A stretch of DNA of 64,000 nucleotides. It comes from Gallionellaceae bacterium (GTDB lineage: Bacteria; Pseudomonadota; Gammaproteobacteria; Burkholderiales; Gallionellaceae). How positions within the stretch are numbered: the stretch's first letter is position 1; every line of letters starts with the position of its first letter. Below the pieces are notes generated by a model. It had not been told where the DNA came from. It saw nothing but the letters and a program-made list of their open reading frames with translations, and made no database searches. The stretch is taken from contig JAUQWW010000014.1 of the NCBI GenBank assembly GCA_030834965.1, positions 1 through 64,000 of the forward strand, given 5' to 3'. Of this stretch, positions 7,738-39,002 are shown piece by piece. Both the position numbers and the translations under genes were made by a program.

Positions 7738-8625
7738 CTACTTGTTTCTGTTTTCGATCATGTCGTGCATGATCGGTGTGAGGATCAGTTCCAGCGCCAG
7801 GTTCATCTTGCCGCCGGGCACCACGATGGTGTTCGGGCGAGACATGAAAGAATTGTGGATCATGCTGAGGTAGTAGGGGAAATCCACTCCGCGCGGATTA
7901 CGGAAGCGGACCACCACGAAACTTTCGTCCGGGGTCGGGATGTCGCGCGCGATGAACGGATTGGAAGTATCCACCGTGGACACGCGCTGAAAGTTGATGT
8001 CGGTGCGTGAAAACTGCGGCGTCAGGTAGTTGATGTAATCCGGCATGCGGCGCAGGATGGTGTCCACGGTCGCTTCGGCGGAATAGCCGCGCTCGGACTG
8101 GTCGCGGTGGATTTTCTGTATCCACTCCAGATTCACGATAGGCACCACGCCGATGCTCAGGTCAACGTGCTTGGCTGCATTCACGGTGTCGGTCTTCACC
8201 ATGCCATGCAGGCCTTCATAAAACAGCAGGTCAGATCCTGTGGGAATGTCTTCCCAGGGGGTAAATTGACCCGGGCTCAGGTTGGTGCCCAGGCGTGCAT
8301 TAAGCTCTTTCGCTTCCGCATCGCTGTGAATGTAAAAGCGGCGCTTGCACGTGCCGGTTTCACCGTAGGTCTTGAAGGTTTCTTCGATCTTGTCGAAGTG
8401 ATTGGCCTCCGGGCCGAAGTGGCTGAACGAATGGTTGCCCTTCTTGGCTGCTTCGGCCACGGCCGCACGGAATGCCATTCGATCCAGGCTATGCATGCTG
8501 TCACCCTCAACCACGGCGGCAGTGATGTGTTCACGGCGGAAAATGTTCTCAAAAGCGCGCTTGACGGTTGTAGTACCTGCGCCGGACGAACCGGTCACGG
8601 CAATGACGGGGTGTTTGCGGGACAT
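7738..8625 (-). CDS. cbbP: Phosphoribulokinase (Calvin cycle)
   Basis: 295 residues, the full length of the proteobacterial class I enzyme. It phosphorylates ribulose 5-phosphate with ATP to give ribulose 1,5-bisphosphate, the acceptor for RuBisCO, in the cytoplasm. Walker A is GSSGAGTT at 12-19. The VVEGDSMH...R motif and HFGPEANHFD region line the sugar-phosphate site, and DLLFYEGLHG carries the conserved EGLH. An exact Calvin-type enzyme indicates autotrophic carbon fixation. It stands alone: no RuBisCO, cbbR or other cbb genes lie beside it, which is common in Gallionella-like and nitrifier genomes. It is divergent from leuS with about 200 bases between. Confidence 0.95.
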   Translation of the reverse strand: MSRKHPVIAVTGSSGAGTTTVKRAFENIFRREHITAAVVEGDSMHSLDRMAFRAAVAEAAKKGNHSFSHFGPEANHFDKIEETFKTYGETGTCKRRFYIHSDAEAKELNARLGTNLSPGQFTPWEDIPTGSDLLFYEGLHGMVKTDTVNAAKHVDLSIGVVPIVNLEWIQKIHRDQSERGYSAEATVDTILRRMPDYINYLTPQFSRTDINFQRVSTVDTSNPFIARDIPTPDESFVVVRFRNPRGVDFPYYLSMIHNSFMSRPNTIVVPGGKMNLALELILTPIMHDMIENRNK

Positions 8626-31630: not shown

Positions 31631-32023
31631 TTATTTAGTCCCCGCAGCAGGCGGCGCTTCCTGTAATGCCTTGTCATAATCCTTCCGGGCAGTATCGGTA
31701 CCTGCCGGCGCCATTCCTCGATTAATCACCGCATACTGCACTTCAGCCTCGTTATGGTTCATGCAGACAGCGAGATACTTTTCTTTCTCGTCACCCTTCA
31801 AGGCTTTGTTTTTCACATTTTTGTCGCAATACGCTTTCTTTTGCTGTAATGCGACCGCCTTAACATTGGCCGGCGAACTGGCTTCTGCCAGACACGACTT
31901 CATATGAGCAGCGTATTCAGCGGGCGGCAAATGAGCGCCCCTGGATTCACAATTTCCGGCAAGAACCGGGGTGGCCAGCAGTGCGAATACGCTGAGCGCA
32001 ATAGCAGTAATAATATGTCTCAC
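31631..32023 (-). CDS. PsiF-like secreted protein 1
   Basis: 130 residues. Signal peptide (MRHIITAIALSVFALLATPVLA), then CESRGAHLPPAEYAAHMKSC and the PsiF repeat core: CLAEASSPANVKAVALQQ, KAYCDKNVKNKALKGDEK, YLAVCMNHN. PsiF proteins are small periplasmic proteins named from phosphate-starvation induction in E. coli, with no known activity. The conserved cysteines could form disulfides. It is the first of three homologues within 5 kb. Its promoter region carries the 29-bp element shared with copy 3, and its terminator resembles that of copy 2. Confidence 0.8.
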   Translation of the reverse strand: MRHIITAIALSVFALLATPVLAGNCESRGAHLPPAEYAAHMKSCLAEASSPANVKAVALQQKKAYCDKNVKNKALKGDEKEKYLAVCMNHNEAEVQYAVINRGMAPAGTDTARKDYDKALQEAPPAAGTK

Positions 32024-32334: not shown

Positions 32335-32754
32335 TTACTTAGGCCCTGCAGCAGTCGGCGTTTCCTCCAGCATCTTGTTGTAATCCGTGCCGGCAGTATC
32401 GGTATTCGCCGGAGCGATTCGCCGATTGATCGACGCATACTGCACTTGAGCCTGATTATCGTTCATGCACGATGTGACATAATGCTTTTGCTCGCTACAA
32501 CCGACATAGGTACTGCAATTTAAGCCTTCATTTTTTGAGTTACTGACGCAATAGGCGAGTTTTTGTTGAAGGGCAACGGCTTCAACATTGGCCGGGGAAC
32601 TGGCCTGGTCCAGGCACAACTTCATATGAGAAACGTATTCCGCAGGTGGCAAATGAGCACCTTTGGATTCACAGCTTTCTTCGTTCCCGGCAAAAACGGA
32701 TGGGGCCAGCAGTGTGGATATGCTAAGAGCAACAGCGGCAATAATACGCTTCAT
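32335..32754 (-). CDS. PsiF-like secreted protein 2
   Basis: 139 residues, signal peptide MKRIIAAVALSISTLLAPSV then FAGNEE. Clearly a paralogue of copy 1 (KGAHLPPAEYVSHMKLCLDQ, ASSPANVEAVALQQKLAYC) and shares the C-terminal APANTDTAGTDYNKMLEE form. It differs in the centre: the Lys-rich KNVKNKALKGDEKEK of copies 1 and 3 is replaced by NSKNEGLNCSTYVGCSEQKH, adding two cysteines. It lacks the TTAAG element upstream. Likely a duplicate diverging in both regulation and disulfide pattern. Function unknown. Confidence 0.75.
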   Translation of the reverse strand: MKRIIAAVALSISTLLAPSVFAGNEESCESKGAHLPPAEYVSHMKLCLDQASSPANVEAVALQQKLAYCVSNSKNEGLNCSTYVGCSEQKHYVTSCMNDNQAQVQYASINRRIAPANTDTAGTDYNKMLEETPTAAGPK

Positions 32755-32946: not shown

Positions 32947-33990
32947 TTAGCGCTCCAGACTCAAATCCATCTCGGTGCTATCCCCCTTACGCACTGACAC
33001 CTTCTCGTCCACCGTCTTGTAGCCTTCCATCTTCACACTCAGCGCATGCACGCCTGGCTCCATTTCCAGGCGCAACGGCGACAGACCGTAATACACGCCG
33101 TCCAGATAGACCTTGGCGCGTGTGGGCTTGGTATTAATCAGAAACAGGCCGCTCGTTGCGGTGGCACGCGGCTCTTGAGTTTGCGGCAGAACAACCGCAC
33201 TCGCAGCCGGCATCGGCGCGGCTTGCTGCACCGGGAGTGTTGGCGCAGGCGCAATGGGCGCATGCACGGCACTTGGCGCAACCAGCACGGACACTCCGGG
33301 AATCGGTCTCGTGCCGGGCGTCAGGTTGAACAGCTCGGGACTCGCAGCCATCAGGCTGTCACTGATCGCTTTGGTAGTTTTATCGGTGACAACACCCAAT
33401 TCCTTGCGCAGGTAATTGGCGACGTCTTTCTTGTTATTTCCCGACACGCCCGCAAAGCGGTCGTTTTTTTCCACCACGATGCCGGACCACACCACCTTGC
33501 CCGTCTTTATTTCTTTCAGCGACGTCTCGATGGCGATGGAGACCTCGTCGCGCCCTTTGACATCGTAGGTCAGCTCTTTCACCGTACCGCTCAAATCAAA
33601 CAGCGCGGTGCCATCCTGCGCCTCTCTCACCTGAAAACCGGCATCATCCAGGCTGGTCTTCATCGCATTGGTCACAACCGTTGCCACATCCTGATCCAGC
33701 ACGAGGTCCTTGCCGCGCATCCCGGATACAAATTCCGCACCTGTTCCGATCTTGCGCGGGTTGCCTATGCTGCGTACATCCGCGTAACGGTTGATACGAA
33801 TACTGGCTGCATACTTCATCGAAGGCGCATTGGGACTGGCTTTCTTGCTTTCGGCAACATGGATGGCATTGCCATCCTCGTCGCCAAACATGCCGCCCAA
33901 CGTGGGCATGCCCGCATTGGAGCAGCCAGCCGCAGATATCACCACCAGACTCAAGAGGATTCGTCGCAGGAATTGCTTCATCATGCCCAT
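32947..33990 (-). CDS. PEGA-domain lipoprotein
   Basis: 347 residues. Lipobox VISAAGC at about residue 23 makes it an envelope lipoprotein. The central region (residues 55-220) resembles assembly-type lipoproteins that bind envelope partners (VTNAMKTSLDDAGFQVREAQ, TALFDLSGTVKELTYDVKG, TGKVVWSGIVVEKNDRFAG). A Pro/Ala-rich linker follows, and the end is a PEGA domain (TKPTRAKVYLDGVYYGLSPL, then LSVKMEGYKTVDEKVSV), a surface-layer-like beta fold. Two ATGs (codons 1 and 3 or 4) are possible starts. Same strand as the psiF genes and the cytochrome-porin but separated from both by terminators or gaps. Confidence 0.75.
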   Translation of the reverse strand: MGMMKQFLRRILLSLVVISAAGCSNAGMPTLGGMFGDEDGNAIHVAESKKASPNAPSMKYAASIRINRYADVRSIGNPRKIGTGAEFVSGMRGKDLVLDQDVATVVTNAMKTSLDDAGFQVREAQDGTALFDLSGTVKELTYDVKGRDEVSIAIETSLKEIKTGKVVWSGIVVEKNDRFAGVSGNNKKDVANYLRKELGVVTDKTTKAISDSLMAASPELFNLTPGTRPIPGVSVLVAPSAVHAPIAPAPTLPVQQAAPMPAASAVVLPQTQEPRATATSGLFLINTKPTRAKVYLDGVYYGLSPLRLEMEPGVHALSVKMEGYKTVDEKVSVRKGDSTEMDLSLER

Positions 33991-34125: not shown

Positions 34126-34152
34126 AAAAAGCAGGGGGCCGAAGCCCCCTGT
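34126..34152 (-). terminator. Terminator of the cytochrome-porin gene
   Basis: CAGGGGGC / GCCCCCTG stem at 34132-34151 with a short loop; on the minus strand it is followed by five T. It lies 64 bases past the stop at 34216. Confidence 0.85.
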
Positions 34153-34215: not shown

Positions 34216-35637
34216 TTACCATGCACCTTCCAGCATCAGCAGGAGCAAGTTCTTTTGTGCGCCGGGCGTATTGCGCGAAGACCCGCTGTACGAGCTGTAG
34301 TTCAAATGGAAACCAATGTTCTGATACAGGTCGTACACGGCAGTAACGGTCCATGCATCGTCACCATTGACGCCAGCTGCGGTACCATTCTCTGCCTTGC
34401 GGCGAGACGCGCCGATACTCAGGGCATGCGGAATCACCGAGTAGTCAACACCGATGGTAGTTGCCTTGCGGTCTGGGTTGCCGACCACCCCAGAGGCATT
34501 GTACGCATTACCGACGACGGTGTTAGGAGCTTTAGCATGCTGTGCGTATATAGCTATTTCCTTGCCGGCCAGCTGGCCCTGCGCCTGGAAGTCATAGAAC
34601 GTTTGATTCGTATCAACCTGCTGGCCAGCACCCACATTGGAGAACGATGACCCGCTCATCTTGCCTCCGCCTAGCATCAGCGCCCAGTTAGCTACGGTAG
34701 GCGTGAAAGCGATACGGGCATAGTCGTTGTTGAATTTTGTGGATGATATGGCTTGGCCATTGCCGCCCGGCATGAATGAAGGCGACCACTTGGTCAGGTT
34801 GATGAAGCCCATCTCGTTTTGCGCAACGAAAGCGATACCGGTTGCCGCGCCAGCGTCAGCACCCTGGTCGGCATTGTACTGAACAGCCGAAGTGTCACGC
34901 CGCAGTTCCGCCCAGCGATTAGCACGCATGACGCCGCCGCTGGACAACTCATACCCATATTGCACGCCCAGCGCATCGGTAGTAAAGGGAATCACGCTCA
35001 CCCTACCATCGGTGCCAACACCGTAACTGAAAGGCAGCTTGATACCTGCCAGGAATCCTCCACTTCCGCCAGCATTATTGGCTACGTTGGGTGGCGCCAG
35101 ACACTGAGCGGTACCACCTGCACCGATAGTTACGCTACCGGCTGCTATCTCTGCTGCCGTACAAGCAACGCCCATCGCACCGGCCGCCCCTTGCGTTGAT
35201 GCGACACCGCCAGTATGGTTAACCAGATTGCCTTCGAATATAAAGCCTACGTTTTCTGCCACACGCCCACCAAAGAACAGGCTGGTTTCGTCACCGAAAT
35301 CCCATCGACCGTTGCCCAAGCTTGTAGGAGCAGTCGTGCCGCCGCCAACTGCACCGGCGGTGTTGTCCTTTTGGTGGCGAACCTTGATGAAAAGCGCTCC
35401 ATTCAAGGTATCAGGAAGGGACAAGCCCTCACCCTCAACCTTGGCCTGTGCGCCCATCAATGTATATCCGGATGCCTTGAAAGCGCGGCCGAAACTGTTC
35501 AGCACGGGAAAGTGTTGTGCGTGGCAGGCATTACATGCCATACCGACCTGACGCGCAAAAGCGGGAAGTGCTGACGCTTGTGGGATAAACCCTACTGCTG
35601 CCAGCAAACCTGCCAAATAAAGTGCTATTTTTTTCAT
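34216..35637 (-). CDS. Outer-membrane monoheme cytochrome-porin (Cyc2-like architecture)
   Basis: 473 residues. Signal peptide to about residue 24 (...QASA), then one c-type heme site CNACH at 35-39. It continues AQHFPVLNSFGRAFKASGYT, the CxxCH-N-P-x-LN-x-FGR-F-x-GY pattern of fused cytochrome-porins. The rest, about 400 residues, is Gly/Asn/Thr-rich with alternating beta strands (WDFGDETSLFFGGRVAENVG, YARIAFTPTVANWALMLGGG) and ends in LLLLMLEGAW. The terminal aromatic is the signal for insertion by Bam. Cyc2 of iron oxidisers has the same plan and takes electrons from Fe(II) at the cell surface. This protein may belong to a sister family; donor unknown. It stands alone, with its own FNR-type promoter and terminator. 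Confidence 0.75.
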   Translation of the reverse strand: MKKIALYLAGLLAAVGFIPQASALPAFARQVGMACNACHAQHFPVLNSFGRAFKASGYTLMGAQAKVEGEGLSLPDTLNGALFIKVRHQKDNTAGAVGGGTTAPTSLGNGRWDFGDETSLFFGGRVAENVGFIFEGNLVNHTGGVASTQGAAGAMGVACTAAEIAAGSVTIGAGGTAQCLAPPNVANNAGGSGGFLAGIKLPFSYGVGTDGRVSVIPFTTDALGVQYGYELSSGGVMRANRWAELRRDTSAVQYNADQGADAGAATGIAFVAQNEMGFINLTKWSPSFMPGGNGQAISSTKFNNDYARIAFTPTVANWALMLGGGKMSGSSFSNVGAGQQVDTNQTFYDFQAQGQLAGKEIAIYAQHAKAPNTVVGNAYNASGVVGNPDRKATTIGVDYSVIPHALSIGASRRKAENGTAAGVNGDDAWTVTAVYDLYQNIGFHLNYSSYSGSSRNTPGAQKNLLLLMLEGAW

Positions 35638-35793
35638 ATATAAAATCTCCTTATCCCCTGTTCAGATTTTGCGGCCCCATCATAACAGCGACGTGCGAAC
35701 CAACTTGCACGGATGGGTATTACCCGGCGAAACCATATCACTTCTTGTGCGCATGCGCTAAGGATTTTGCCTATTTTTCAGGCCTGCCAAGGA

Positions 35794-35834
35794 GTTTTAC
35801 CTGCGGAAATTGAGATTTTTTTGATCTACATCAA
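35794..35834 (-). promoter_or_regulatory. FNR/ANR-type class II promoter of the cytochrome-porin
   Basis: TTGATCTACATCAA at 35821-35834 is a perfect FNR/ANR/Dnr half-site palindrome (TTGAT-N4-ATCAA). On the minus strand a -10-like TAAAAC lies at 35799-35794. That puts the box centre about 40-41 bases before the inferred transcript start, the class II activator position. The leader would be about 150 bases to the ATG at 35637. Suggests induction when oxygen is low. Confidence 0.65.
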
Positions 35835-35902: not shown

Positions 35903-35965
35903 CAAAATGCGCCATCGGCGCATTTTGTTTGAAGAATACCGGCACCGATTAAACGGCGCCGGCAG
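35903..35965 (-). terminator. Tandem hairpins after psiF-like gene 3
   Basis: A CAAAATGCGCC / GGCGCATTTTG hairpin at 35903-35927, with T-rich sequence after it on the minus strand, is preceded by a CCGGC.CCG / CGG.GCCGG hairpin near 35939-35963. They isolate psiF-like gene 3 from the FNR-type promoter just beyond. Confidence 0.65.
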
Positions 35966-35989: not shown

Positions 35990-36448
35990 CTATTGGCTGC
36001 CAGCAGGGCTCGTCTTTAACAGGGCAGTGACAAAGCCGGTGAATTTCTGCAGTGCCTTATCGAAATCCATCGAAGTAATATCGGAATCCGATGCCGCCCT
36101 ATCGCGATTAAGCTGTGCGAATTGCGCTTGAGCCTCATTATCGTTTATGCAGGCCGTGAGATAGCTTTCTTTTTCGCTACCCTGCAATGCTTTGTTTTTC
36201 ACGTTTTTATCGCAATACGCTTTCTTTTGCTGCAATGCGACTGCCTTGACATTTTCCGGTGAACTGGCTTCGGCCAAACACGACTTCATAAAAACACTCT
36301 GTTCGGCCAGTGGCAATGCCACGGCTTTGGATTCGCACTGTCTGGGGTTCAGCGGCTGATTGCCAGCCATTTCTGTATGCCCGGCAAGCGCCTGGGTAGT
36401 CAACAGGGTGGATACACTGACAGCAATAGCAGTAATAGTGCGTTTCAT
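35990..36448 (-). CDS. PsiF-like secreted protein 3
   Basis: 152 residues from the ATG at 36448 (MKRTITAIAVSVSTLLTTQA signal peptide); an in-frame ATG five codons upstream is less likely. Core as in copy 1: CLAEASSPENVKAVALQQKK, AYCDKNVKNKALQGSEKE, SYLTACINDNEAQAQFAQLN. The N-terminal insertion HTEMAGNQPLNPRQ and the C-terminal extension FTGFVTALLKTSPAGSQ are unique to this copy. The Lys-rich centre is nearly identical to copy 1, and both share the TTAAG element upstream, so copies 1 and 3 are probably co-regulated. Function unknown. Confidence 0.78.
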   Translation of the reverse strand: MKRTITAIAVSVSTLLTTQALAGHTEMAGNQPLNPRQCESKAVALPLAEQSVFMKSCLAEASSPENVKAVALQQKKAYCDKNVKNKALQGSEKESYLTACINDNEAQAQFAQLNRDRAASDSDITSMDFDKALQKFTGFVTALLKTSPAGSQ

Positions 36449-36563
36449 AATAAATTCTCCCATGAATTAGAGGTTACTAACTTACGACCAATACCATCAG
36501 ATGCGACACCATTTACCCCTACCCGAAAAATCCTTGTCCCTTGAATGATTGCCTGGCATCAGC

Positions 36564-38900: not shown

Positions 38901-39002
38901 GCGCGCGCTTCAGGTCTGGAATGAATTCAATATGAATGGATAATGCCTCAAGTAGCGTATCGTTTCAAAAATTTCACCGCACATGCGCGTTAAGCGCACT
39001 GC

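Follow-up and report, generated by a model that had tools for sequence, protein, structure and literature searches.

A cyc2 gene preceded by a perfect FNR-type box in a Gallionellaceae bacterium suggests oxygen-linked control of a cytochrome-porin

The stretch of DNA analysed here (the window, 64,000 nucleotides of a Gallionellaceae bacterium) carries on its minus strand a gene for a fused cytochrome-porin, followed by a hairpin and by a gene encoding a PEGA-domain protein:

34216..35637, minus strand: cyc2, encoding a fused monohaem cytochrome-porin of 473 aa (open reading frame and translation, trees, AlphaFold2 barrel, Z of about 23 with OprB, OprP and OprO)
35500..35571, minus strand: the haem segment, residues 23-46, ALPAFARQV-GMA-CNACH-AQHF-PVL (motif as given in passages of PMC8406198, and 132 homologs)
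34132..34151, minus strand: strong intrinsic-terminator-like hairpin (8-bp stem and T run) 3' of cyc2 (hairpin scan)
32947..33990, minus strand: PEGA-domain gene, next 3' of cyc2, encoding a lipoprotein as judged by eye (Pfam PEGA, 9.7e-16)

Pfam and NCBIfam returned no family for the cyc2 product at E values up to 1, and the protein was therefore identified by the features that Keffer et al. 2021 (passages of PMC8406198) list for Cyc2: AXPXFAR[Q/K][T/Y], CXXCH, PXL four residues on and an OprO/OprP-like barrel, in a chain that mostly totals 400 residues or more. A sequence search of the PDB yielded a single match, with an E value of 1.8. The N-terminus resembles a signal peptide when judged by eye, ALPAFARQ precedes the haem site and PVL follows it after four residues, while the total length (473 residues) exceeds the median of 429.5 among 132 distinct homologs (150 extracted minus 18 duplicates). 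As an earlier reading of the sequence alone had claimed, CNACH (residues 35-39) is the only CXXCH of the protein and its last residue is Trp. The same sequence-only reading had seen an extra residue before the Pro and had taken FGR as a distinguishing mark, and neither point held: the four-residue gap is the spacing published in the parts of PMC8406198 on this motif and recurs in 119/132 homologs, and FGR is conserved in 20 aligned sequences (G in all, F and R in at least 90% of them).

One letter of the published motif is different, as V31 occupies the T/Y position. This position is T in 114 and V in 12 of the 132 homologs (the window included), with one Q and one Y, four further homologs having failed to match the motif expression used for the count. 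Within the 14-row clade described below it is V in three rows (the window, L002 and L003) and T in 11, so that the position drifts. Because this one position departs from the motif, we call the window protein a Cyc2-lineage variant by descent; a screen with the motif ending in T/Y, as worded in the passages of PMC8406198, would drop V-bearing sequences, the window Cyc2 among them.

A structure prediction of the barrel, which had been suggested as a check, gave a barrel indeed. AlphaFold2, run on 66 aligned sequences, reached a mean pLDDT of 81.2 and a pTM of 0.81, with the barrel mostly above pLDDT 85 and two poorly predicted stretches, at about residues 19-44 (the end of the signal and the haem segment) and 142-192 (a long insert). 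In a realigned list of 1000 chains the model was closest to OprB (4gey, Z 23.0 over 309 residues, 3.4 A), OprP (2o4v, Z 23.0) and OprO (4rjx and 4rjw, Z 22.9 and 22.7), a small lead of about 1 Z or less, since the remaining porins stood at Z 20-22; in Foldseek's own order a Campylobacter MOMP came first and OprP ranked 21. For Cyc2 of M. ferrooxydans, too, passages of PMC8406198 name OprO and OprP. A predicted porin barrel is thus well supported, whereas the exact type of porin is not, the model resembling OprB, OprP and OprO by a small margin.

The sequence-only reading had also considered a sister family of Cyc2 that uses another electron donor, to be checked by phylogeny. In the trees the window Cyc2 grouped with Cyc2 of Gallionellaceae, i.e. 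the Cluster 1 lineage, and not as a sister family. With FastTree (178 rows) it fell in a 16-row set (support 99), itself part of a Gallionellaceae clade of 46 rows (support 100) that includes both Ca. Ferrigenium sequences, and with IQ-TREE (65 rows) in a 14-row set (99) inside a 27-row clade (100). Chlorobium sp. N1 belongs to the adjoining clade, joined by a branch with a support of 91 in both trees, below the 95 mark. Gallionellaceae and iron-oxidizing Chlorobium are assigned to Cyc2 Cluster 1 in passages of PMC8406198, from which our cluster labels are taken, the trees having been built without Cyc2 of M. ferrooxydans, Acidithiobacillus and Leptospirillum and without Cluster 2 or 3 references; the placement is matched by Gallionellaceae, Ca. 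Ferrigenium and, farther off, Chlorobium sp. N1 as neighbours. The Val in the motif and the poorly predicted long insert could speak for another donor, but the nesting within Gallionellaceae Cyc2 in both trees, the normal CXXCH-PxL spacing and FGR, and the other Val-bearing homologs make such a sister family very improbable.

The iron oxidases of Cluster 1 (from Gallionellaceae, Zetaproteobacteria such as M. ferrooxydans PV-1, and Fe-oxidizing Chlorobium; passages of PMC8406198) likewise have one CXXCH, AXPXFARQ and PxL after four residues, and share the OprP/OprO-type barrel and, for the Gallionellaceae and Chlorobium sp. N1, a large clade with the window Cyc2, from which they differ at the T/Y position. 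For M. ferrooxydans Cyc2 the haem was reported near +208 mV. Homologs were found in 51 of the 100 genomes searched, the own genome counted, and in none of the ten searched from one genus of the Gallionellaceae (g8). Named relatives, among the best 80 of at least 574, are mainly MAGs of Gallionella, Sideroxydans and Ca. Ferrigenium, and the nearest relative, L083, shares 70% identity with the window Cyc2. The gene is the only match in its own draft genome (3.07 Mb, 104 contigs). The claim of a single-chain cytochrome-porin on the plan of Fe(II) oxidases is supported, in an organism with Calvin-cycle genes: the protein is recognisable as the outer-membrane Cyc2 of a Gallionella-type bacterium, unremarkable as a protein, and judged on descent and fold it is very probably an iron oxidase of the Cyc2 lineage.

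Since the strong terminator-like hairpin lies directly downstream, cyc2 is probably monocistronic. In 12 of the 14 deltaproteobacterial loci among the best 80 of at least 574 relatives (L125, L126, L127, L130, L132, L134, L135, L140, L150, L158, L161 and L162), cyc2 is likewise followed by a PEGA homolog on its own strand, the gap being 31-215 nt with rule-based starts; as to the two exceptions, the sequence of L131 ends 302 nt past cyc2 and L139 has no PEGA gene. The remaining 66 named loci of those best 80 lacked a PEGA homolog beside cyc2 at E values up to 1e-4. Within the family the two genes adjoin in the window and in G018, and when both occur in a genome they mostly lie at unlinked sites; in 36 family genomes we counted both genes in 22, cyc2 alone in two, the PEGA gene alone in four and neither in eight, uncorrected for kinship. 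The PEGA lipoprotein is a possible, hitherto unrecognised partner of Cyc2 to judge by this gene order, and the term PEGA was absent from the Cyc2-related papers searched for it. A gene for a Kef-type antiporter 5' of cyc2 is common to 6 of the 143 loci searched. Three small secreted PsiF-like paralogs, 46-59% identical, flank the cyc2-PEGA pair on the minus strand (31631-32023, 32335-32754 and 35990-36463), and a GC-rich hairpin with A/T flanks at 35906-35927, which separates the PsiF-like gene 5' of cyc2 from the box described next, is probably the terminator of that gene, as judged by eye; the hairpin scan did not list it.

The upstream region of cyc2 contains the following elements:

35821..35834, minus strand: perfect FNR/ANR-type box TTGATGTAGATCAA (TTGAT-N4-ATCAA), 184 nt 5' of the start codon (pattern search; the same 14-mer stands before ccoN)
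35794..35799, minus strand: candidate -10 TAAAAC (4 of 6), class II, with the box centre at -40.5 (hexamer fit)
35732..35740, minus strand: candidate extended -10 TGATATGGT, class I, with the box centre at -102.5; the element lies 100 nt 5' of the start codon (hexamer fit)

The perfect box had been claimed before and is present as described. Box centres near -41 and near -102 both work for Fnr-type activators, and the -10 fits relative to the box are mediocre (AAAACT, with 3 of 6, would set the box centre at -41.5). Of the proposed class II promoter of the FNR/ANR type the box stood, as did the Fnr regulators of the genome (see below), whereas the class II spacing is loose and class I fits equally. 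Two perfect boxes occur in the window, against 0.03 expected from shuffles; the second (34603-34616) lies within the coding sequence of cyc2 and may be a matter of chance, and since one box sits there, perfect boxes need not be functional. In the 3.07-Mb genome the perfect box is found at 11 places and a control pattern at none. We rejected the possibility that the upstream box serves another gene, as the gene at 35990-36463, 5' of the box and on the same strand, ends before it, and the next plus-strand gene of the greedy ORF list starts at 38983.

An ordinary promoter is hard to recognise in front of the window cyc2: exact TTGACA is absent from the last 200 nt, no pair of hexamers reaches the threshold of the promoter scan and the best fit (TTGGCA/AATCCT) matches in 8 of 12 positions. 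We compared this region with a set of 77 cyc2 upstream regions, made up of the family loci and the nearest named loci from the best 80 of at least 574 relatives, a few of which are titled only Nitrosomonadales, Betaproteobacteria or Gammaproteobacteria (L047, with only 27 nt upstream, was left out). Among the loci extracted for the comparisons, L118 and L143 had no ORF passing the motif filter and L142 contributed its second gene only. Exact TTGACA was found within the last 200 nt in 54/77 of these family or near-family regions, the window being counted and lacking it, against a mean of 5.23 and a maximum of 13 in 200 shuffles of the 77 regions. Of the 77, the upstream region of the window cyc2 alone had the perfect box. 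The window cyc2 differs from most cyc2 genes of the family in having an FNR-type box and no TTGACA. The 23 regions without TTGACA include those of the near relatives L002, L003 and L008, which lack TTGACA and yet have gained no perfect box, so that the loss is not diagnostic. Similarly, 19 of the 77 regions have a two-hexamer score of 8 or less; a weak score alone is therefore not rare and, with a best fit of 8 of 12, a weak ordinary promoter is possible for the window cyc2.

Within 400 nt (370 nt for L083), no perfect box precedes cyc2 in any of the 13 rows that share the 14-row clade with the window Cyc2, although L007 has a box with one mismatch; ten of the 13, including L083, have TTGACA, and the remaining three are those named above, with neither element. 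The box consequently lacks footprint conservation and looks like a local gain, as far as the compared upstream regions tell. The -10 of the relatives lies at a median of 90 nt from the start codon, and because TGATATGGT sits in about the same place, the earlier promoter may have been left without its -35 and become dependent on an activator, the FNR-type box standing in for the TTGACA-type promoter that most relatives would use.

Alternatively, since the 13 nearest relatives have no perfect box and the extended -10 stands roughly as far from the start codon as is usual, the box could be a relict or have arisen by chance, with cyc2 transcribed, like its constitutive relatives, from a promoter without regulation such as TTGGCA/AATCCT or the extended -10 (35732-35740). 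One cyc2 copy of S. lithotrophicus ES-1 is high under all conditions, and two of the three copies of Sideroxydans CL21 are high on lactate, according to passages of PMC8788666 and PMC12442390, with which the prevalence of TTGACA fits. The other two copies of ES-1, however, respond to iron (passages of the same papers), so that regulation of cyc2 as such exists. The low number of boxes expected by chance, the identity in letters with a box before ccoN and the missing TTGACA with a best fit of only 8 of 12 also argue against it, and we regard a non-functional box as quite unlikely. In our judgement the box of the window cyc2 probably works, as its match to the consensus and to the ccoN region suggests.

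The same genome encodes the proteins that such a box would call for. Two regulators score above the NCBIfam cut-off for Fnr (L080 and L081) and have the C-x2-C-x5-C spacing, and a third regulator of the Crp family (L082) has no N-terminal cysteine cluster. One of the Fnr regulators adjoins a hemN-like gene (hemN by eye), and a box with one mismatch lies between the two. We also found ccoN (encoding a subunit of cbb3 oxidase), nirS (encoding cytochrome cd1 nitrite reductase), two matches to the large subunit of RuBisCO and, in the window itself at 7741-8625, the phosphoribulokinase gene, i.e. the Calvin-cycle kinase that the sequence-only reading had noticed. MtoA (TIGR03508) gave five weak matches in the genome, none above the cut-off. 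The promoter region of ccoN has two perfect boxes with TTGAC-N4-GTCAA between them, where cyc2 has one upstream box, and one of the two is the cyc2 14-mer TTGATGTAGATCAA letter for letter.

The consensus bound by Dnr-type proteins is the same as that of Fnr, and Ca. Ferrigenium comes from nitrate-reducing Fe-oxidizing cultures. The signal could be nitrogen oxides instead of oxygen, sensed by a Crp-family activator like Dnr or NnrR, with cyc2 serving nitrate-dependent Fe(II) oxidation. The cytochrome cd1 nitrite reductase, the regulator without the cysteine cluster and the related Cyc2 of Ca. Ferrigenium (among the best 80 of at least 574 relatives) would suit such a signal, but oxygen is favoured by the presence of two Fnr proteins and by the identical box before ccoN, and we think nitrogen oxides an unlikely signal. 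Control of the window cyc2 by a regulator of the Fnr/Anr type is likely on the present comparison of promoters and regulators, oxygen being ranked above NO as its signal.

The reading that we favour, with somewhat better than even confidence, is that the sole Cyc2 detected in the genome oxidizes Fe(II) and is expressed at low oxygen through an Fnr/Anr-type regulator together with the cbb3 oxidase. The porin barrel with its short N-terminal monohaem c-type cytochrome would draw electrons from dissolved Fe(II) and hand them inward, as descent and fold suggest, and the high-affinity cbb3 oxidase, switched on alongside cyc2, would probably take them. An Fnr/Anr-type regulator would presumably bind the box and turn on cyc2 when oxygen is low.

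Another finding was that an FNR-type box before Cyc2-family genes recurs. TTGA-N6-TCAA occurs within 300 nt in 8 of the 132 upstream regions of the Cyc2 family (mean 1.44 and maximum 6 in 100 shuffles), and TTGA and TCAA at other spacings, from 2 to 10, in 0-3 genes each. Outside the family the perfect box precedes 7 of 57 divergent Cyc2-family genes (mean 0.04 and maximum 1 in 200 shuffles), all seven in other families of the order (L058, L059, L063, L177, L185, L187 and L194). The set of 57 derives from 70 loci outside the family, 13 of which have no separate row (duplicates or no passing ORF), and ten of its rows (L057-L066) also belong to the set of 132, and L058, L059 and L063 accordingly enter both tallies. 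Because a rule was used to choose the starts of the homologous genes, upstream distances can shift (for L058, 131 nt or 92 nt). These divergent homologs, which have the perfect box in common with the window cyc2, form a separate deep clade and share 18-23% identity with the window Cyc2 (six aligned). Three of the eight regions with TTGA-N6-TCAA (L102, L111 and L116) have the palindrome TTGAC-N4-GTCAA, each time 61 nt 5' of the cyc2 start and just downstream of a TTGACA promoter; this repressor-like place suggests an operator bound by a different protein of the Crp family. That cytochrome-porins of the Cyc2 lineage repeatedly came under control of the Fnr/Anr/Dnr type, in the window copy, where the constitutive promoter would have been swapped for the wiring of the cbb3 regulator, and independently of it in the divergent homologs from other families of the order, is a tentative proposal to which we give slightly less than even odds.

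We found no report of FNR control of cyc2 in the open-licence literature searched, where Fnr was met only in the reference list of one paper, nor of Gallionella iron oxidation under FNR-type oxygen regulation. As cyc2 can be highly expressed with or without iron oxidation (passages of PMC12442390), it is a poor activity marker on its own. If the control proposed here is true, iron oxidation in this bacterium would be an oxygen-gated respiratory module and not an always-ready one, cyc2 transcripts might report iron oxidation at low oxygen, and a sole cyc2 that shares its box with a terminal oxidase would offer a natural test of Cyc2 as a regulated step. The recurrent FNR-type boxes before the divergent Cyc2-family genes hint at a respiratory role of those homologs as well.
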